The notes beneath the pieces were generated by a model, which was given only the letters and a program-made list of their open reading frames with translations, was not told where the DNA came from and searched no databases. From Methylobacterium organophilum (GTDB lineage: Bacteria > Pseudomonadota > Alphaproteobacteria > Rhizobiales > Beijerinckiaceae), in the NCBI RefSeq assembly GCF_022179465.1, contig NZ_BPQV01000001.1, positions 310,001 to 374,000 on the forward strand: a stretch of 64,000 nt of DNA, given 5' to 3'. The position numbers were made by a program, and so were the translations under genes. Positions 50,584-64,000 of this stretch are shown here, one piece after another (the stretch's first letter is position 1; each line of letters starts with the position of its first letter).

Positions 50584-52722
50584 TCACAGATCGACCGACA
50601 TCGACAGCAGATAGGTGCGCGGCGCCCCCTGGAAGAAGGTGCCGAAGGAGGCGACGCCGGTCCAGTAATTCACCCCGGTCGCGTTCAGCACGTCGGCGCG
50701 GAAGGTCGCCCAGCACCCCCCGATCAGGGTCGCGTAGCGCAGGCCGAGATCGAGGCGCGTCCAGTCCGGCAGCGCCTGGGTGTTCGCGGCGTCGACGAAC
50801 TGCCGCCCCGTGTGGAGGACGGCCCCGTTGAGGGTGAGGCCGGGCAGCCAGGGTAGATCCCACTCGACGCCGAGATTGAGCTGCACGCCCGGCACCCCGA
50901 TCGGCGTGTGGCCGATATTGGCGGCCACCGCCGTCCGGGTGAGGACGCCGTCGAGGAGCGTGACGCCGCCGAGGGCCCGCAGGCCGGGCGTGACCTCGCC
51001 GTAGAGAGTGAACTCGAGGCCGCCGACGCACTGCTCGCCGGTCTGGGCGAAGCGCCGCGCCGGGCTGAGCTCGCCGATCGGCCGGGTGATCTGGAAGGCG
51101 CCGAAGCTCGCCCCCAGCGTCCCGAAATCCAGCTTCACGCCCGCCTCGACCTGATGCGCGACATAGGGGGCGAGCACCTCCCCGGAATTGGTCGCCGCGA
51201 GGGGGGCCACGTCGCCGCGGCTCAGGCCCTCGATGTAGTTGCCGTAGAACGAGACGTGGTCCCAGGGGCGCACCACCAGGCCGACGAGGGGGCTCGTCGC
51301 GCCCTTGTCGTAGGACGAGGCCAGCGTGCCGACATTCGAGACGTAGTTATGGGCCTCAATGCGCTGCTGGCGCAGGCCCAGGGTCAGGAGGATGCGCTCG
51401 TCGAAGACCGACAGGGTGTCGGCGACCGCGATCGCGCTCAACGTGCTGTCGGACAGGCGCGGGCGCGATTCGACCACCGTCGGGGCGATGAGGGGGACGA
51501 GGACCGGCGCGTAGAGATTCGACAGGTAGCTGCCCCGTCCGGCCGACAGGCGCCGGGCGATGTCCTCGTTATAGACCGAGGCCTGCACCGCGACGGCGTG
51601 GCGGACGAAGCCGGTGTCGAACCGGGCGCGCAGGCCGCCGTCATACGTGGAGCGGTCGATGCTCATGCCGTAATATTGCGGGGTCGTGGTCGTGTCCCCG
51701 CGCGCGTTGAGGATGGTCGGGGCCGAGGCGAAGTAGCGCTCGACACCGGTCTGGGAGCCGCCGGCATCGGCGAAGAGCGTGACCTGATCGGTGAGATCGT
51801 ATTCGGTGCGCAGCAGACCGCCGCGATCGTCGACATGCGCGTATTCCCACGGCTGCGTCAGGTTCAGGCGGCCGTCGGGGGCCTTCGGGACGGGCACACC
51901 GGCCTTGAGGAGGAACGGGCGCAGCGGCGCGGTGAAGCGATCGGTCTGGGCGAGCATGTAGAGCCAGGCCCGGAACCGCTCGCCCTGGTAGTCGAGGGCG
52001 AGCGCCCCGACGGCCGTGGTCTCGGATTGCCGGTCGAACGGGGCGGCGCCGCCCCGCGGGCTGCCGACGAAGCGGACGCCCCATTCCCGATTCGGGCCGT
52101 AGCGCCGCGCGATGTCCAGCTGGCCGCCGCCGCGCGCGACCGAGCCGTAATCGAGGGTGAGACGGGTCAGGTCCTCGCCCGCGCGCTTGGGGACGATGTT
52201 GATGACGCCGCCGACGCCGCCATTGGGCGAGACCCCCGAGAGCGCGGCGGAGGGCCCCTTCAGCACCTCGATACGCTCGGCATAGTCCGTGAAGATGCGG
52301 AAACTCGGCGCGATGCCGTAGAGGCCGTCGAAGGCGATCTCGCCGCTGGTCCCCTCGTTGATGGGGAAACCGCGGATGTAGAACGAGTCGAACGGCGCCC
52401 CCGTCGTCTGCGTGGCGCGCACGGAGGGGTCGAGGATCAGGGCCTCGGAGGCGGTGCGCGCCTGCCGGTCGCGGATGAACCTGTCCGTGTAGCTCGTGAC
52501 GCTGAAGGGAGACGTTTTCGTCTCGGTGTTGCCGAGCAGGCCGAGACGCCCACCCTCCGCGACCTGGCCGCCGGCATAGGCCGGCATGACGCCGCGCGGC
52601 CCGGCCTTGCCCGCCACCGCGATCTCGTCGAGTTGCACCGGCGCATCCTGAGCGGCCGCGGCACCGGCCATGACGACCAGCGACGTGCCGGCGAAAACCC
52701 TCAAACCGGAGACGGACAACAT
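50584..52722 (-). CDS. TonB-dependent siderophore receptor 2
   Basis: A second outer-membrane TonB-dependent receptor, 712 residues. Signal peptide FAGTSLVVMAGAAAAQ; TonB-box-like LDEIAVAG near residue 32. The plug has RTASEALILDPSVRATQTTG, FDSFYIRGFPINEGTSGEIA and RIEVLKGPSAALSGVSPNGG, with VGGVINIVPKRA ending the plug. The barrel follows with alternating aromatic strands and ends LSMSVDL. It is more similar in style to hydroxamate-type receptors (FhuA/FecA group) than to the first receptor, but ligand is unknown. It is convergent with the LpoA-like gene across 19 bp. Confidence 0.95.
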   Translation of the reverse strand: MLSVSGLRVFAGTSLVVMAGAAAAQDAPVQLDEIAVAGKAGPRGVMPAYAGGQVAEGGRLGLLGNTETKTSPFSVTSYTDRFIRDRQARTASEALILDPSVRATQTTGAPFDSFYIRGFPINEGTSGEIAFDGLYGIAPSFRIFTDYAERIEVLKGPSAALSGVSPNGGVGGVINIVPKRAGEDLTRLTLDYGSVARGGGQLDIARRYGPNREWGVRFVGSPRGGAAPFDRQSETTAVGALALDYQGERFRAWLYMLAQTDRFTAPLRPFLLKAGVPVPKAPDGRLNLTQPWEYAHVDDRGGLLRTEYDLTDQVTLFADAGGSQTGVERYFASAPTILNARGDTTTTPQYYGMSIDRSTYDGGLRARFDTGFVRHAVAVQASVYNEDIARRLSAGRGSYLSNLYAPVLVPLIAPTVVESRPRLSDSTLSAIAVADTLSVFDERILLTLGLRQQRIEAHNYVSNVGTLASSYDKGATSPLVGLVVRPWDHVSFYGNYIEGLSRGDVAPLAATNSGEVLAPYVAHQVEAGVKLDFGTLGASFGAFQITRPIGELSPARRFAQTGEQCVGGLEFTLYGEVTPGLRALGGVTLLDGVLTRTAVAANIGHTPIGVPGVQLNLGVEWDLPWLPGLTLNGAVLHTGRQFVDAANTQALPDWTRLDLGLRYATLIGGCWATFRADVLNATGVNYWTGVASFGTFFQGAPRTYLLSMSVDL

Positions 52723-53314
52723 GGATACGGAGCCTCCGCTCGTGTCGGAACCGGGTCCGCCTTAGCCAATTCGAAGATCTTATCTCAATAAAAAACCGAC
52801 AAATATCGAAACATTATTGCAGTTGCAAATTATAATTCTTCAAATTCTTATGTATTTGTCGGATTTATCGGAATTTTCTATCGGATATTGCTATACTTGA
52901 GGATGCGCAACTTACGGTTCATGCAAGACATCGGCGACCCGTGACACCCGGGCTGCTCGCCGTGCCTCCGACGCGTGTCGCGGTTCTCGTGGGATCGCCC
53001 GGCCCCAGCGGAGAAGGCGGCCGGGCGACAGGCCGTTTGCCCGGGGAGCGTCCGGCAAAGGAAGGGGAGCGCCGCCGATCACCGTCGTCCCACCCGATGG
53101 GCCGGGCTCGACACCGTGGCCGACGCGCCACAGGGCAGGCGAAAAAGCCCTTCGCATCCCCGTTACACGAGATGGTTAACGCGGGACGGCCTGCGCGCTT
53201 CGAGCGGCTGCCCCCGATCCCCGCGAGCCGGGACCCGGCGCCGCGTCCGGTACCGCCGCAGCTCCGGCGCGCCCGCGGCGCGGCGGCAGGCCGCTTCGAA
53301 GGATCCCGAGATCT
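52723..53314. other. Gap between the TonB receptor and the Hint protein
   Basis: 592 bp. The first 200 bases are strikingly AT-rich (52761-52915), probably the promoter region of the receptor and perhaps of the Hint gene. A 10-bp inverted repeat lies at 52796 and 52853. The rest is GC-rich with no supported gene. Confidence 0.6.
52796..52862. repeat. Inverted repeat in the AT-rich gap
   Basis: CCGACAAATA (52796-52805) and TATTTGTCGG (52853-52862) are perfect inverted copies 47 bases apart, 74-140 bp upstream of the receptor start. A protein-binding pair or a stem is possible. Confidence 0.45.
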
Positions 53315-56269
53315 ATGGCGCAGACGATCCCCTCCGGCTCGCAATCGAGCACCTACTCGATCACGACGCCCGACACCTACACCCTGAATGCCGGCGAGAC
53401 CCGCACCCAGACCTCGGGCATCGGCATCCAGGCCAATGTCTCGTCCGGCACCACCACGATCGACATCGAGGGCACGCTCAACGACACCGCTTCCGGCGCG
53501 CGCGCCATCCGGGCCAACATCGTGTCGGGCCGGCTGGTCGTCGGCACGAACGGCCGCGTCCAGTCCCTCAACGGCGATGCCGTGCAGGCGCAATCCGCCA
53601 CCGGCCGGTTCGACGTCGCCAATGGTGGCCAGATCATCTCCGCGAGCTCGATGGGAACGCCCACGGTCGGCGGCTCCAATCCGGGCACGGGCTTCGCCCT
53701 GAACTTCAACGCCGTCACCGGCGCCGCGAACGCCCCGGCCACGGATTTCACGAGCGGCGGCGTCATCACCAACGGCGCGGCCGACAACACCGCCGCCCTG
53801 ATCCGCAGCGACAGCGGCGACGCGATCCGCCTCGGCTCGCACCAGACGCTCGTCAATTACGGCACCATCAACGGCAACGGCCCGGTCAACGACTCGTCGA
53901 CGAACAACAGCTTCAACCAGACGGGCAACACCTCGACGGCGCAGACCTACGACGTCTCCCGCGGCGTGCGCATCAACCAGAACGGGGCGACCAGCGACCG
54001 GATCGACAATTACGGCACCATCACCGGCTCCCAGCACGGCGTCGATGTGGGCCAGACCAACGTCACCGGCCTCGTCGTCAACAACGTCGCCGGGGGCCAG
54101 ATCATCGGGCGCAACGGCTCGGGCGTCGGCTCGGACACCACGGGTGCGGCGGCCAACACGGTCACGGTGACGAATTCGGGCCTGATCCGCGGCGCCTACG
54201 CGCCGGCCTATGACCGAGCGGGCTACCGGACCGTGGACGGGGACGGAGACGGCGTCGACGTCGATGGGGGCGCCACCATCACCAACAATGCCGGCAGCGT
54301 GATCGAGGGCACGGGCGCGGGCGGCTACGACAGCAACGGCCGCCTCAACAACAGCGAAGGCATCTCGATCGGCGGCGGCGTCATCACCAACGACGGCACG
54401 ATCCGCGGCGCGGCCTACGGCATCGTCGTCAACAACGACTCGAACACCGACGGCAGCCGCAGCGGCGTAGCGGCGACCTCGATCGTCAACGGCGCGAGCG
54501 GCCAGATCTCCGGCGAGAACGGCTACGCGATCCGCCTGGAGAACAAGACCGGCAACGCGGCCATCGACAACGACACGATCGTCAATGCCGGCACGATCAC
54601 CGGCAACGGCACGATCCCGACCGGCACGGTCCTGCGCCAGGACGGAAGCGCGGATCCGGGCACCGTCGGCACCCTGGACGGCACCGGCTACACCACCGCG
54701 GATGCGGGCTCGGCACGCTTCATCCGGGGCGACGGTTCGGCGATCCAGACCGGCGAGGGCAGCGACACCCTCAGCAACTACGGCACGATCACCGGCAATA
54801 CGGGCCGCGCGATCAACCTGGAAGGCGGCGACGACACCCTGAACCTCTATACGGGCTCCTCCGTCAGCGGACGGATCGACGGGGGTGCGGGCACCGACAC
54901 GCTCAACCTGCGCCTCGACGACCGCCCAGCCACGGCCGCGAGCGGGTCCGGCTCCCTGGGCGCCAATTCGGGCGCGACCACCGGCACCCTCGCCAACGTG
55001 GTGAATGTCGAGAAGCTCGCGGTCCAGGGCGGCTCCTGGACGATCCAGGACATGCAGGCCTACGGCGCCGGCATCGCCATCGACGCCCATGCGGGGCTCA
55101 CGGTGGGTGCGGGGGGCAGCCTCGCCGGGACGGTCGCGAATGCCGGGACGCTGACCTTCGCCCATCGCGGCGACCTCGCCATGGCGGACACGATCTCGGG
55201 GCAGGGCAGCCTGGTGCAGGCGGGAAGCGGGGCGCTGACGCTCAGCGGCGCCAACAGCTACAGCGGCGGCACCACGATCCAGTCCGGCAACCTCACCCTC
55301 GCGGCGGCCGGCGCGGCCGGCACCGGCGCGATCGCCTTCCCCACGCTGACAGGCGAGGCGACCGCCCGGTTGACGCTGACGGCGGCCGCGCAGCCGAACG
55401 CCGTCACCTTCGCCAACACCATCGCCAATTTCGGCACCGGCTCCGAGCTCGACCTCGCCGGGCTCACGGATGCGCGCGTCAGCTTCAACGCCAGCAGCAG
55501 CCTGCTGACGGTGGCGGGCACGAGCGGCGGCAATGCGATCACCCAGAGCTACCGCTTCTCGGGCGCGGCCTCGACCGCCTTCACCACGCGCAGCGACGGC
55601 AATGGCGGCACCCTGATCACGGTCTGCTTCACCACCGGCACCCGGATCCAGACCCGGCGCGGCGCGGTGCCGGTGGAAGCGCTGCGGGTCGGCGACCAGG
55701 CGGTGACCGCCTCGGGGGGCCTGCGGCCGATCATCTGGATCGGCCACCGGGATCTCGACGGCGCGGGCGAGCCCCTGCACCACGACCAGCAGCCGATCCG
55801 CATCCGTAAGGGCGCCTTCGGCCGGGATGCGGAGGGCCGGCCCCTGCCGGCGCGGGCGCTGTTCCTCTCGCCCGGCCATCCGGTCCTCGTCGGGGCGGAT
55901 GCGGACAATGAGGGCGGCGTGCTGGTGCCGATCATGTGCCTGATCAACGGCACCAGCATCGCCCGCCTGGCTGCGCCCCGCGTCACCTACTGGCACGTGG
56001 AGCTCGACGCCCACGACATCCTGCTCGCGGAAGGGCTGCCGGCGGAGAGCTATCTCGACGGGGGCAACCGTCTCTTCTTCACGGAAGGCAGCGACCACGC
56101 CCTGCACAACCCGGACTTCGTGCCCCCGGGCTGGAACGGCCGCTGCCGGCCGGTCGCCGTGGACGGCCCCCTGGTCGAGGCCGAGCGGGCACGCCTCGGC
56201 GCGGTCTTCGCGGCGGAGCTCACCGGGCATTGCGGGTGGGTCGCCCCGGAGAGCTGGCGCGGCGCATAG
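53315..56269 (+). CDS. Large repetitive surface-type protein ending in a Hint domain
   Basis: A 984-residue protein. Residues about 15-650 are a beta-helix-type passenger made of irregular repeats such as TLVNYGTINGNGP, DNYGTITGSQHGVDV, TVTNSGLIRGAY, VNAGTITGNG and LSNYGTITGNTGRAINLEGG, rich in Asn, Gly, Thr and Ser. Around 630-760 come autotransporter-associated-repeat segments (ALTLSGANSYSGGTTIQSGN). From Cys771 (VCFTTGTRIQTRRGAVPVEA, LRVGDQAVTASGGLRPIIWI) it becomes a Hint domain with SPGHPVLV (His855) and VELDAHDILLAEGLPAESYL, a Hint_2 hallmark. No Sec signal peptide and no C-terminal beta-barrel are visible. Autoprocessing is expected from the Hint fold but not shown. The passenger may be exported by another route. 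Confidence 0.88.
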   Translation: MAQTIPSGSQSSTYSITTPDTYTLNAGETRTQTSGIGIQANVSSGTTTIDIEGTLNDTASGARAIRANIVSGRLVVGTNGRVQSLNGDAVQAQSATGRFDVANGGQIISASSMGTPTVGGSNPGTGFALNFNAVTGAANAPATDFTSGGVITNGAADNTAALIRSDSGDAIRLGSHQTLVNYGTINGNGPVNDSSTNNSFNQTGNTSTAQTYDVSRGVRINQNGATSDRIDNYGTITGSQHGVDVGQTNVTGLVVNNVAGGQIIGRNGSGVGSDTTGAAANTVTVTNSGLIRGAYAPAYDRAGYRTVDGDGDGVDVDGGATITNNAGSVIEGTGAGGYDSNGRLNNSEGISIGGGVITNDGTIRGAAYGIVVNNDSNTDGSRSGVAATSIVNGASGQISGENGYAIRLENKTGNAAIDNDTIVNAGTITGNGTIPTGTVLRQDGSADPGTVGTLDGTGYTTADAGSARFIRGDGSAIQTGEGSDTLSNYGTITGNTGRAINLEGGDDTLNLYTGSSVSGRIDGGAGTDTLNLRLDDRPATAASGSGSLGANSGATTGTLANVVNVEKLAVQGGSWTIQDMQAYGAGIAIDAHAGLTVGAGGSLAGTVANAGTLTFAHRGDLAMADTISGQGSLVQAGSGALTLSGANSYSGGTTIQSGNLTLAAAGAAGTGAIAFPTLTGEATARLTLTAAAQPNAVTFANTIANFGTGSELDLAGLTDARVSFNASSSLLTVAGTSGGNAITQSYRFSGAASTAFTTRSDGNGGTLITVCFTTGTRIQTRRGAVPVEALRVGDQAVTASGGLRPIIWIGHRDLDGAGEPLHHDQQPIRIRKGAFGRDAEGRPLPARALFLSPGHPVLVGADADNEGGVLVPIMCLINGTSIARLAAPRVTYWHVELDAHDILLAEGLPAESYLDGGNRLFFTEGSDHALHNPDFVPPGWNGRCRPVAVDGPLVEAERARLGAVFAAELTGHCGWVAPESWRGA

Positions 56270-56475
56270 CCCGGCCTCGTCCCCCGAGTCTCGGCCCGTC
56301 CGTCCCTCCCTGACAACGGCTGCGAGGGGACGGCGGCGTCCATTCCCATCCGCGCCGCGCGTGACGCAAGCCCCTTGGAGAAGCACTCCGCGAAGCAGCT
56401 CGTCACAACCGCTTCGTCACGCACCGTACAAAACAAAGGTTGTATGGCTTATTGTCCGGTTGTCGACACTATCCT

Positions 56476-57321
56476 ATGTTGATCCAGACAGAGCAAATAC
56501 TGTCTGCTTTCGGACCGTTCTCCGAGATCGATCACAATCTAATCGCCTTTGTCGACCAATCGTTTATTCGGCACGCGCAAACGTTTGCCCAGCTGCCGAT
56601 CTGTGTCTTGCCTGCTTCTTCGTCCTGCCAGAACCGCCTGCTCGCCCTTCTCTCAAAGGACGACCTCGCGCTTCTCGAACCACATCTTGAGCCGTTCAAC
56701 GCGCCCTTGGGGACTGTGCTCGTCGAGCCGGACCAGCCGATCCTCCACGCGCATTTTCCCGAAACCGGCCTGTGCTCCGTGATCGCGGCCTCGCGGGAGG
56801 GCAGCCGGATCGAGATCGGTCTGTTCGGGCGGGACGGCTTCGGCAGCGCGGCCCTCGCGCTGGGCAGCGACCGCATCCCGCACCAGATCTTCATGCAGGT
56901 CGGGGGCGGCGGTCAGCGGATCCGGACCGACCTCCTCAAACGGGCGATCGAGGCCAGCCCAACCCTGCGCGCGCTGCTGCTGCGCTACGCGCAGACCTTC
57001 CTGGTCCAGATCGCCCAGACGGCCCTGGCCAATGCCAGCGCGCCGGTCGAGGAGCGCCTGGCACGCTGGCTCGTGATGTATCACGACCGCCAGGACGGCG
57101 AGGTCCTCTCGATCACCCACGAACTCTTGTCGATGATGCTGGGCGTGCGCCGGCCGACCGTCACGGTGGCCCTGCAGATGCTGGAGGGCGCGGGCCTGAT
57201 CCAGGCCAAGCGCGGGCGCATCATCGTGCTCAACCGGGCCCGGCTGATCAAGGCCGCCGGCGAGGCCTACGGGCCGGCGGAGAGCGAGTACGAGCGCTTG
57301 ATCGGGTCCCTGCGGGGCTGA
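56476..57321 (+). CDS. Crp/Fnr-family transcription regulator 1
   Basis: The product has a cNMP-binding domain (PASSSCQNRLLALLSKDDLA, VLVEPDQPILHAHFPETGLC, EIGLFGRDGFGSAALALGSD), a dimer helix and a C-terminal helix-turn-helix (LSITHELLSMMLGVRRPTVT, VALQMLEGAGLIQAKRGRII). The start is not certain. The ATG at 56476 is the only ATG in frame; the first 50 codons are AT-rich and may be leader, in which case a TTG at 56608 (then LPASSS) is the better start. There is no cysteine cluster typical of Fnr [4Fe-4S] sensors. It resembles the regulator at 57534 in the helix-turn-helix, pointing to a duplication. Confidence 0.85.
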   Translation: MLIQTEQILSAFGPFSEIDHNLIAFVDQSFIRHAQTFAQLPICVLPASSSCQNRLLALLSKDDLALLEPHLEPFNAPLGTVLVEPDQPILHAHFPETGLCSVIAASREGSRIEIGLFGRDGFGSAALALGSDRIPHQIFMQVGGGGQRIRTDLLKRAIEASPTLRALLLRYAQTFLVQIAQTALANASAPVEERLARWLVMYHDRQDGEVLSITHELLSMMLGVRRPTVTVALQMLEGAGLIQAKRGRIIVLNRARLIKAAGEAYGPAESEYERLIGSLRG

Positions 57322-57342
57322 GGGGACCGGCGGCCGCTCGGA

Positions 57343-57576
57343 TCACAGCAGCGTGTCGCAGGGAACCTCCGCGAGGGCCGTGCCGGCCTCGTCGGTGATC
57401 ACGAACACGTCGTGCCGCCATTTGCGCGGCGCCCCGTAGACATGGGGCAGGCGCAGCATCTCGCGCAGGATCGCGAGGGCAAGTCCGCGCGCCGCGTCGA
57501 GATCGGGGAGCTCGTCGCCTTCCTCGTCGCGGATCAGGACGCCGCGGCGACGTGTGTTGAGGAAGTAGCGCGGCAG
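57343..57576 (-). CDS. DUF6894-type small protein with apparent CTG start
   Basis: The 77-residue product matches the small DUF6894 family well known from Methylobacterium-like genomes: LPRYFLNTRRRGVLIRDEEG, then DELPDLDAARGLALAILREM and a C-terminal VFVITDEAGTALAEV. Family members normally start MPRYFF. No ATG, GTG or TTG exists nearby in this frame. The codon in the Met position is CTG (57576-57574), with GGGGAGG six bases before it. Thus CTG probably initiates. The 5' end overlaps the end of the regulator gene at 57534, so translation may be coupled. Function unknown. Confidence 0.65.
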   Translation of the reverse strand: MPRYFLNTRRRGVLIRDEEGDELPDLDAARGLALAILREMLRLPHVYGAPRKWRHDVFVITDEAGTALAEVPCDTLL

Positions 57577-58289
57577 GGTTCCGCCTCCCCGAGCAACCGC
57601 TCGTATTCCGCCTCGGCCGTCCCGTAGGTGTCGCGGGCGAGGTCCTTCAGTTGATCGCGGTCGAGCACGATGACGCGCCCGCGCCTGGCCTGAATCATCC
57701 GGCGCCCTTCCAGAACATGCATCGCGGTCGTGACGCCGGGACGGCGCACGCCGAGCATGAGCGCCATGAAATCGTGCGTGAGGGGCAGCTCGTTCCTGCG
57801 CAGGCGATCCTGCGTCATGAGGATCCAACGGGCGAGGCGGATCTCGATGGTGCAGTCCGCGTTGGCGTAAACGGTCTCTCCGACCTGTACGATCAGGCTC
57901 TGGACATAACGCCCCAGGACGCCCCGCAGTGCCGGGCTGGCCTCGAGGGCCGCCTGCAGGTCGGAGGCCTCGATGCGGAGCATCGACCCCTCCGCCTGCA
58001 CCATCGCGTTGTGCGGCGTGCGCCCGGTGCCCAGCACGAGCGGCGTGCCGACGAAGCCTTCATAGCCCACGAGGCCGATCTCGACGCGGCCTTCCACCGT
58101 GTCGCAGATCAGCGAGACGAGCCCGTCCTCCGGAAAATAGCCATGGGTGATCGGCTCGCGGGCCATGACGAGCGGCTGCCGCATGCTCATGGACACTCGT
58201 TCGAGACTCGGCGCGAGGCGCTCGAACTCCATCGGCGTCAAGGCCGCGAGCAGCCGGTTGCGGACAATGTCGTGGTGAAGCTGGGACAC
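57534..58289 (-). CDS. Crp/Fnr-family transcription regulator 2
   Basis: A 251-residue Crp-like regulator. The cNMP-binding domain contains QPLVMAREPITHGYFPEDGL and EIGLVGYEGFVGTPLVLGTG. A long dimer helix is followed by the helix-turn-helix LPLTHDFMALMLGVRRPGVT with TAMHVLEGRRMIQARRGRVI. No iron-sulphur cysteines. The start is GTG at 58289 (then SQLHHDIVRN), with a GGAG in place; longer frames reach 58367 but are less likely. It shares its helix-turn-helix wording with the regulator at 56476. The last 40 bases overlap the DUF6894 gene. Confidence 0.9.
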   Translation of the reverse strand: MSQLHHDIVRNRLLAALTPMEFERLAPSLERVSMSMRQPLVMAREPITHGYFPEDGLVSLICDTVEGRVEIGLVGYEGFVGTPLVLGTGRTPHNAMVQAEGSMLRIEASDLQAALEASPALRGVLGRYVQSLIVQVGETVYANADCTIEIRLARWILMTQDRLRRNELPLTHDFMALMLGVRRPGVTTAMHVLEGRRMIQARRGRVIVLDRDQLKDLARDTYGTAEAEYERLLGEAEPCRATSSTHVAAAS

Positions 58290-58901
58290 GGCTCCACTCC
58301 CTCTTCGAGAATTTCCCGCACAGGTTGTGCAGCAGCGGCGACGCCCCGGCTCGCCCGCCCGAGCCATCCAGCCCGGGCCGGCCTCTCGCCTATCGAGGCA
58401 AACCTCTTGCCAAGCATCGCGAATTTCGGACGCGGCGCCTGTGCGACGTCGGGACCGCTCCCCTTACTTAAGGACGATCAGGCGAAAAACGACCAGCGTA
58501 CGATCTCATACCGAGGGGGCGAGAAAACAAAGTACGGTTTCAGACCCAAGATACAACCTATATTTAAGATGATAAAACCCTGGGTTAAGGATATTTCCTG
58601 CGGGATCCGGGCCTCATCGCCACGGGCTCCTCGGCGCGTCCGAGATTTTTCTGGAGAAATCGGACCCGGCCGGTTGTTTTTCTGATCACGCTCGATCGCA
58701 GGATCGGGTTGGATCTTTTCGATGCTTGGGCAACGATCGGATCTCATCGCGCCGGGCCGTCGAGCCGGGAGAGCGGGACAACCGGGCGGAGACGGCATCG
58801 AGGGAGGCCTCTGTCGTGAGTCATGCACCCACGTCGTCCCACGGAAACCCGGCGGCCGCCTCGCGGACCATGCGCCCTGCGGAACGGCTGGGGACCGAGC
58901 A
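58290..58901. other. Divergent gap between regulators 2 and 3
   Basis: 612 bp. Between about 58480 and 58600 the sequence is AT-rich and probably holds promoters for both regulators. No strong palindrome or gene was found. If regulator 3 starts at the ATG at 58722 instead of 58902, the gap is shorter. Confidence 0.5.
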
Positions 58902-59672
58902 TTGACCGGCCTCCAGGCTCCCCTCGCCCGCCCCCGCAACGGAACAGCCCCCTCGCCCGACAGCGCGGGAGAAGTCCTCGTCGCCCGGCTCGCCGGCTTC
59001 GTCCCCCTTTCCCCCGACGACCGGACGGCCCTGTCCCAGCTCGCGCGGCGGGAGACCTACGTGCCGGCCCATATGGATCTCGTCCACGAGGGCGAGGCGA
59101 CGGATAGCGCCTTCCTCGTGCTGGAGGGGATCGCCTGCCGCTATGTCGAGAATGCCGCCGGCGCGCGCCAGATCCTGGCCCTGCTGCTGCCGGGCGACCT
59201 CTGCGACACCGATCTGGGCCACCTGACGCAGTGGGATCACGGCATCGCGGCCCTGTCGCCCTGCCAGGTGGCCCGCGTGCCGCGGACCAAGCTCGAGGGG
59301 CTGATCGCAACCCATCCCGCCGTCACGCAGGCCTTCCGGCTGGCCAAGCTCGAAGCGGAAGCGCGAAGCCGCAACTGGCTGGCCGCCCTCGGCATCTGCC
59401 GGGCCACGGAGCGGCTGACGCGGGTGCTGTGCGAGATCCTCGACCGGCTGCACGCCGTGGGTCTTTCCGGCCCGAGCGATTGCCCGCTGCCGCTGACGCA
59501 GATGGATCTCGCCGAGTGCATCGGCACGAGCAGCGTCCACGTCAACCGCACGCTGCAGGAGCTGCGCCGCTCAGGCACGATGGAGTTGAAGGGCGGCCGC
59601 CTGCGCATCCTCGACCGGGCCGGCCTGGAGGCCCTGAACGGCCACAGGCGCCCCCCGCTCCCGAACGTCTGA
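58902..59672 (+). CDS. Crp/Fnr-family transcription regulator 3
   Basis: A Crp-like regulator with cNMP-binding domain (VARLAGFVPLSPDDRTALSQ, RRETYVPAHMDLVHEGEATD, LLPGDLCDTDLGHLTQWDHG) and helix-turn-helix (LPLTQMDLAECIGTSSVHVN, RTLQELRRSGTMELKGGRLR). It differs from regulators 1 and 2 and is closer in style to the 'TQxDLAxxxGxSxVHVNR' Crp group common in Alphaproteobacteria. The start is uncertain: the frame is open back to an ATG at 58722, but that stretch reads like non-coding Arg/Gly sequence. A TTG at 58902 gives a normal length of 256 residues. Confidence 0.85.
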   Translation: MTGLQAPLARPRNGTAPSPDSAGEVLVARLAGFVPLSPDDRTALSQLARRETYVPAHMDLVHEGEATDSAFLVLEGIACRYVENAAGARQILALLLPGDLCDTDLGHLTQWDHGIAALSPCQVARVPRTKLEGLIATHPAVTQAFRLAKLEAEARSRNWLAALGICRATERLTRVLCEILDRLHAVGLSGPSDCPLPLTQMDLAECIGTSSVHVNRTLQELRRSGTMELKGGRLRILDRAGLEALNGHRRPPLPNV

Positions 59673-63289: not shown

Positions 63290-64000
63290 TCAGAGCCGGA
63301 AATCCTCGCCGAGATAGAGCCGGCGGGCATCCTCGTTGGCGACGATCTCGTCGGGGGTGCCCTCGGTGAGGATGCGGCCGGAATGGGCGATATAGGCGCG
63401 GTCGATCAGGCCCAGCGTCTCGCGCACGTTGTGGTCGGTGATGAGCACGCCGATGTTGCGGCGCTTCAGATGCTTCACGAGATCCTGGATGTCGCCCACC
63501 GCGATGGGGTCGATGCCGGCGAAGGGCTCGTCGAGCAGGATGAAGGTCGGCGAGGAGGCGAGCGCCCGGGCGATCTCGCAGCGCCGGCGCTCGCCGCCGG
63601 ACAGGGCGATCGAGGGCGACTTGCGCAGGCGCGCGATGTCGAACTCCTCCAGCAGGGAATCGAGCTTGCGCTCCCGCAGCTTGCGGTCGGGCTCGGCCAC
63701 CTCGAGCACCGCGCGGATATTGTCCTCGACGGACAGGCCCCGGAAGATCGAGGCCTCCTGCGGCAGGTAGCCGATGCCGAGGCGCGCGCGCTGGTACATC
63801 GGCAGCCGGGTGATCTCCATGCCGTCCAGGCTGATCGTGCCGCGGTCGGCGGTGACGAGGCCGGTGATCATGTAGAAGATCGTGGTCTTGCCCGCCCCGT
63901 TCGGGCCGAGCAGGCCCACGGCCTCGCCGGTGCGCACCGTCAGGCCCGCCTCGTGCACCACGGTGCGCGCCCCGTAGCTCTTGCGCAGGCCGCGCACGGC
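63290..64000 (-). CDS. lptB: LPS export ABC transporter ATP-binding protein (5' end missing)
   Basis: LptB drives lipopolysaccharide transport with LptFG. The visible 236 codons have Walker A GLLGPNGAGKTTIFYMITGL, the Q-loop GYLPQEASIFRGLSVEDNIR, signature SIALSGGERRRCEIARALAS, Walker B FILLDEPFAGIDPIAVGDIQ and the H-loop VLITDHNVRETLGLIDRAY. The start lies beyond the right edge; the GTG at 63997 is internal (AVRGLRKSYGAR). It is upstream of rpoN in the usual cluster. Confidence 0.97.
   Translation of the reverse strand, partial: AVRGLRKSYGARTVVHEAGLTVRTGEAVGLLGPNGAGKTTIFYMITGLVTADRGTISLDGMEITRLPMYQRARLGIGYLPQEASIFRGLSVEDNIRAVLEVAEPDRKLRERKLDSLLEEFDIARLRKSPSIALSGGERRRCEIARALASSPTFILLDEPFAGIDPIAVGDIQDLVKHLKRRNIGVLITDHNVRETLGLIDRAYIAHSGRILTEGTPDEIVANEDARRLYLGEDFRL

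Follow-up and report, generated by a model that had tools for sequence, protein, structure and literature searches.

BILs flank RTX domains, and RTX repeats are frequent, though not universal, in proteins secreted by type I systems. Type B BILs are defined by the absence of similarity to intein block G (PMC4031507). Hedgehog has a C-terminal autoprocessing domain without the intein C-terminal pair but with the N-terminal machinery retained (PMC7664689). Neisseria MafB is a secreted protein with a Sec signal, in which the Hint stands behind an N-terminal domain and is followed by a toxin domain (PMC5472700). Among the matches listed by a literature search there was no paper on an architecture combining a beta-helix with Hint_2; subscription papers were mostly outside its coverage, so absence there means little.

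The gene considered here lies in the window, i.e. the whole 64,000-nucleotide stretch of Methylobacterium organophilum DNA that was analysed, and a preliminary description took it for an autotransporter-like passenger ending in a Hint domain instead of a barrel. Its Hint_2 domain resembles type B BILs by the Hint fold, Cys1, the Ser-x-x-His of block B, the His of block F and the lack of an intein-like C-terminal His-Asn, with no likeness to intein block G (Glu then Ser/Thr in 155/155 domains); it differs from them by this invariant Glu then Ser/Thr and by a tail of its own behind the domain, and cleavage is here predicted only. The Hedgehog autoprocessing domain shows 15% identity to the Hint model and shares with Hint_2 the missing C-terminal pair and the preserved N-terminal machinery, transfer being putative in the present case. 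The passenger is homologous to that of two type Va autotransporters with PF03797 barrels, whereas the window protein has neither barrel nor leader. Compared with type I substrates of the RTX/serralysin type and with AlgE-type epimerases combining beta-helix and RTX, it bears Hint_2 and a tail instead of RTX repeats; like a type I substrate it is leaderless, it has no RTX repeats, and its own genome holds candidate transporters. Unlike MafB, it displays neither a Sec signal nor a toxin domain after the Hint.

The gene and its product

The features of the gene are as follows.

53315..56269, + strand: whole gene, 984 aa, comprising beta-helix passenger, linker module, Hint_2 and helical tail (ORF list, Pfam, homologues)
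53180..53314, + strand: stretch in frame with the gene ahead of its ATG, containing neither a start codon nor residues resembling a signal peptide
53315..54904, + strand: right-handed parallel beta-helix, about residues 1-530 (predicted model and structural alignment)
Residues 181, 232, 359, 424 and 488, + strand: NxGTIxG-type repeats of the beta-helix (repeat list)
55112..55624, + strand: linker module, residues 600-770, holding one PATR
55211-55300, + strand: PATR of the linker module, residues 633-662 (Pfam)
55625..55627, + strand: Cys771, Hint residue 1 and predicted nucleophile, Val770-Cys771 being the predicted scissile bond (C in 155/155 domains)
55625..56062, + strand: Hint_2 domain, residues 771-916 (Pfam)
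56045..56050, + strand: Glu911-Ser912, at the position of the intein C-terminal His-Asn (conservation and structural alignment)
56063..56266, + strand: short tail, with a predicted helix at 952-973 and Trp at -4 from the C-terminus (model, tail comparison)

The fold and architecture of the window protein are shown computationally. The succession of a beta-helix passenger and a Hint starting at Cys771 is confirmed by the Pfam profile of Hint_2 (PF13403, 143.8 bits against a cut-off of 28.4) and by the predicted model, in which structure prediction gave a right-handed beta-helix and zero barrel strands. The absence of a barrel and of a visible signal peptide, both put forward earlier, also held: neither the PF03797 barrel nor PF00353 RTX repeats matched at E<=1 in Pfam, and reading and hydropathy of the N-terminus revealed no Sec signal peptide. 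A hidden barrel is ruled out by the Pfam profiles together with the predicted model, and a corrected start concealing a signal peptide by the lack of any in-frame start codon upstream. Searched by sequence against solved structures, the full-length protein gave one chance-level match (E 0.27). As for related genomes, where the same architecture was to be sought, three homologues at 63-68% identity and nearly full length are found in three other genomes of the genus. A relative of the linker module lies upstream of RTX repeats in locus L074 (36% over 180 aa).

Conserved residues and predicted chemistry

Among 155 Hint_2 domains, Cys1 (155/155), the Ser and His of block B and the His of block F are retained in 152-155 of them, and the place of the intein His-Asn is held by Glu in all, then by Ser in 153 and Thr in two. 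The structural alignment of the Hint stops at model residue 142, corresponding to chain residue 125 of gp41-1 or 440 of Mtu RecA, which we take to be the last intein residues. Because Glu-Ser/Thr replaces the His-Asn of inteins, the domain is predicted to cleave at its N-terminus but not to splice, in the manner of type B BILs or Hedgehog. N-terminal self-cleavage of Hint_2 is judged likely. Transfer of the passenger to a nucleophile would be improbable. Counting against efficient cleavage, Pro directly precedes Cys1 in 31/155 domains, and a Pro in that position is unlikely to form the thioester efficiently.

The tails behind these 155 domains fall into a short class (112), a long class (27) and a third class (13), three being unclassed. 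Short-tail proteins end in Ala in 76/112 cases and carry Trp at -4 in 41/112, against 302/1020 and 51/1020, respectively, in a background of called genes that itself includes Hint genes. This C-terminal bias shows selection or shared descent, not function, and could equally be that of a degron.

Exchange of C-terminal modules within one passenger family

Relatives were sought in 100 Methylobacterium/Methylorubrum genomes, designated by G-numbers (G000 being the own genome), the loci bearing L-numbers. The passenger (residues 1-770) gave 24 matches in 23 of these genomes, own included (E<=1e-10). The Pfam scan covered 16 of the 24 matches (for L065, L066 and L067, only the final 400 residues), two of the eight others lying at contig ends, and sorted the C-termini as follows.

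Hint_2, five: window, L058, L059, L060, L071
RTX, five: L061, L062, L069, L070, L074
DUF4214, one: L040
Autotransporter barrel PF03797, two: L064, L065
None of these four, three: L066, L067, L076

By eye, outside the Pfam scan, L047 shows a Hint and L053 (= L077) a barrel. Most of the helix is shared at 46-68% identity by four Hint forms, the RTX forms L061 and L062, L040 and the two barrel forms, the latter at 46%. For L066 and L067 the match starts at residue 162-169, with 43-47% identity, and for L069 and L070 the identity is 31%; the sharing is partial in L071 (571-973 only), L074 (600-770 only) and L076 (pieces from 540 on). The genomes of the RTX form L062 and the DUF4214 form L040 (G028 and G089) contain no Hint_2 match. 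Since the same passenger sits on other tails in relatives, Hint_2 has the appearance of one tail among several that exported proteins can exchange. The position of the Hint in the place of a barrel is supported, with the proviso that RTX and DUF4214 tails occupy the same place too.

Of note, L066 (2603 aa) and L067 are giant leaderless passenger relatives ending in a DTFVF..GFGKD stretch (L066:12385-13584 and L067:15879-17078), which resembles a type I C-terminus by eye and matched no export model of Pfam or NCBIfam.

Measured as the maximum 12-residue Kyte-Doolittle mean over the first 60 residues, a hydrophobic stretch appears near the N-terminus of the barrel forms (2.03 in L064 and 1.83 in L065, whose called starts are GTG and TTG), so that the autotransporter-like nature of the passenger is borne out, in the strong sense of the term, by homologues in two congeners having both leader and barrel. 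For the window protein, L058-L061, L069-L071 and L040, the maximum is 0.38-1.55, and the readable Hint and RTX forms have no leader; L062 is cut at its contig start, and the start of L040 is unsure, since an upstream in-frame ATG would add about 20 residues. The start site of the window gene is conserved in relatives. As RTX and DUF4214 tails also stand in the barrel's place and the readable RTX forms are leaderless, a leaderless substrate of type I-like character describes the window protein better than an unusual autotransporter does.

A 12-passenger tree places the RTX form L061 together with L059 and L060, both Hint forms (97/99), and requires two changes of Hint; this fork is no longer starred in a nine-row tree omitting L066, L067 and L068. 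On the nine-row tree, a single clade of the four Hint forms (AU p 0.025) and one of the three short-tail Hint forms (AU p 0.020) were both rejected, these tests having been made after the first tree was seen. With moderate confidence, the Hint-type passengers would therefore not form one clade. In a quick tree of 58 Hint domains, which excludes the cut copy of G080, the window Hint (row L004) has its shortest path to L002, a paralogue of the own genome with 76% identity, the Hint belonging to the sister passenger L060 (row L024) being more distant; this placement is weak, because the smallest well-supported set around the window Hint holds 23 rows. Both passenger and Hint seem to have recombined.

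Hint_2 behind other modules

The own genome has four Hint_2 genes, namely the window gene, L080 behind a matrixin-type metalloprotease, and L078 and L079 behind short modules that Pfam does not name; elsewhere, PD40 propellers, collagen-like repeats or a GH16-like domain (L204) precede Hint_2. Matches to the metalloprotease module of L080 number 23, spread over 19/100 genomes of the genus, and of the 22 C-termini read, two are Hint (the own gene and L207). Besides L080, five were scanned by Pfam: DUF5648 was found in L206 and DUF4214 in L217, and L220, L221 and L222 showed no C-terminal family reaching its cut-off, with a sub-threshold M10_C match in L220 and 4-5 RTX-like nonapeptides by pattern in L220 and L221.

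In L146 of M. variabile, Peptidase_M10 and the serralysin M10_C are over their cut-offs and are followed by Hint_2. The NCBIfam serralysin model matches it over residues 55 to 353 of 462 (162 bits for a model cut-off of 500), and as this match halts at 353, a serralysin's C-terminal part seems to be lacking at the place that the Hint occupies.

NCBIfam RTX toxin models also gave matches, which reflect the calcium repeats and are far below the cut-offs, and the reading of these proteins as toxins was set aside on that account. Besides, L228 (11334-16282) harbours a DUF4214 protein directly adjoining a PrtD/HlyD pair; with four DUF4214 copies and leaderless by eye, it hints that DUF4214 may be a type I substrate module.

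Type I systems and their co-occurrence with Hint_2

The own genome encodes the following candidate transporters.

C1:15185-16801, C2:278157-279782 and C16:15106-16737: PrtD over cut-off, each beside HlyD
C8: LssB-like transporter, below cut-off, beside a fourth HlyD

A class-wide sample of 289 alphaproteobacterial genomes yielded 14 with Hint_2 over cut-off, belonging to nine families, and HlyD (E<=1e-50) is present in 14/14 of these versus 168/275 of the others. The corresponding Fisher p values, 0.0015 with the own genome and 0.0025 without, overstate the true weight of this co-occurrence, since three genomes (G287, G306 and G358) have partial Hint matches only and G287 has a weak HlyD (2.7e-54).

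Within the genus, Hint_2 occurs in 65/100 genomes and PrtD in 91/100, which makes PrtD useless as a discriminator there. By best E, nine genomes have no PrtD over cut-off; five of them have HlyD over cut-off, four of these also HlyB. No PrtD, HlyD, HlyB or LssB was over cut-off in G056, G057, G068 and G080, all of which have Hint_2, and Hint_2 is not enriched in the type I genomes of the genus (61/96 vs 4/4, p 0.29). The Hint is intact in G056 (two copies) and G057 (one), a 47-position fragment in G068 and a cut domain in G080; a short tail like that of the window protein is seen in 0/4 readable copies of these congeners, a number too small for a conclusion.

The preliminary description had noted that no type I genes flank the gene and had left the secretion route open. 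Reading of the neighbours agrees, neither a partner barrel nor type I genes standing beside the window gene, and kin of PrtD or HlyD were found among the called genes near Hint in 0/103 loci, with flanks of at most 8 kb, many of them short, and crude gene calling; in G097, one Hint lies about 5.5 kb from a PrtD/HlyD pair. The route itself is narrowed towards type I by the tail exchange and the class-wide HlyD co-occurrence, with the four congeners as counter-examples. Taken together, the tail exchange, the leader seen in the two barrel forms and in none of the readable Hint or RTX forms, the serralysin-like protein with Hint_2 and the HlyD co-occurrence point indirectly to type I export, which the balance of these comparisons slightly favours for the Hint_2 protein.

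Genomic setting, phages and plasmids

By reading, the window gene has as neighbours one receptor of the TonB type and three Crp/Fnr-like regulators, the latter in a row downstream (56440-59672), and the setting is not that of a prophage. Related TonB-type receptors adjoin the passenger gene in the window (50584-52722, - strand) and in L066 (1067-3604, - strand), accompanied in L066 by FecR- and sigma-like genes, all these names coming from reading. No family is common to the passenger loci; their neighbours cluster as TonB-type receptors (window, L066), ABC ATPases (L064, L067 and window 63290-64000), whose likeness was taken to be generic, regulators, and the syntenic pair L069/L070.

INPHARED phages gave no match to the Hint plus tail at E<=1e-5. 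On contigs called viral by IMG/VR, copies other than that of the window are found: in L177, L179, L181, L185 and L186, Hint_2 genes of about 340-490 aa stand beside lysis-, UmuDC- or tail-fibre-like genes, mostly on the opposite strand in L177, L179, L181 and L186 and on the same strand as the UmuDC-like genes in L185, the Hint being confirmed by Pfam in L177 and L179 only. In L177, the supposed endolysin and another neighbour matched no Pfam family. In L089, L090 and L093-L096, small tail-collar-like genes adjoin Hint_2 genes whose other modules are collagen-like or short, the two checked (L093 and L094) both carrying the Phage Tail Collar domain PF07484. In L071 (1037-5715), the 803-aa Hint protein, which shares residues 571-973 of the window protein, adjoins a UmuC-like gene (PF00817) and may lie in a prophage. 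Among plasmids, 225 records match some part of the window protein and none over 80% of the query, the best being a Hint-only match at 73% (M. aquaticum plasmid) and one at 35% with residues 1-408 (annotated autotransporter of Azospirillum thermophilum).

Export and processing

The reading tentatively preferred is that of a leaderless exported beta-helix protein, in which Hint_2 and the helical tail would act as an exchangeable export-and-processing module. The chain is made without a Sec leader, none being encoded, and the C-terminal module, standing in place of the RTX/serralysin-type tails of relatives, would probably direct export via an unlinked type I system. On folding, Cys771 is expected from the fold and conserved residues to attack the Val770-Cys771 bond by an N-S acyl shift; the thioester would be resolved by water or another nucleophile, freeing passenger 1-770 from Hint and tail. 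With Glu-Ser for His-Asn, neither splicing nor Asn-driven C-terminal cleavage would take place. Outside, the passenger might, very tentatively, serve as an adhesin- or glycan-related beta-helix.

Hint_2 could alternatively be a type B BIL concerned with release only, export relying on lysis of the prophage type, on vesicles or on some unknown exporter, and the resemblance to RTX proteins stemming from surface modules in common, not from a common exporter. Such a view, possible but rather unlikely, would account for the Hint_2 genes in the four genomes without recognised type I systems, for the missing linkage of Hint loci to type I genes and for the Hint genes on viral-called contigs, some adjoining lysis-, UmuDC- or tail-fibre-like genes, which make release by lysis conceivable; yet the surroundings of the window gene do not read as a prophage, what was taken for an endolysin in L177 has no Pfam family, and both the Hint_2 behind a serralysin-like protease with a curtailed profile match and the class-wide HlyD co-occurrence argue against it.

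Two further explanations appear improbable. A cytoplasmic or dead fusion, in which a Hint cassette recombined onto a passenger that had lost leader and barrel and whose product is not exported, would fit the lack of both elements and of a neighbour family common to the passenger loci, but is at odds with the near full-length forms in three other genomes, the catalytic residues conserved throughout the family and the start site that was kept. In a Hedgehog-like transfer, Cys771 would hand the C-terminus of the passenger on to an amine, sugar or lipid of the surface, thereby anchoring the passenger; the absent intein pair with retained N-terminal machinery, as in Hedgehog (PMC7664689), and the tail behind the Hint across the family are in line with it, but no acceptor is known and hydrolysis requires no partner.

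Significance

Hint_2 is frequent in the genus and uncommon in the class-wide sample, and a single passenger family found either with a barrel plus leader, or leaderless with RTX or Hint, amounts to a natural experiment in which an export role of the Hint is testable by simple comparison. A bolder and quite unlikely extension would make of Hint_2 and the short helical tail a self-removing type I export tag in Methylobacterium and kin, exporting leaderless beta-helix, metalloprotease, beta-propeller and collagen-like passengers, cutting at Cys1 and passing the passenger to water or a surface nucleophile, i.e. a Gram-negative counterpart of sortase- or Hedgehog-type anchoring. If the Hint module does both export the passenger and remove itself, it would be a compact secretion tag leaving no tail behind.
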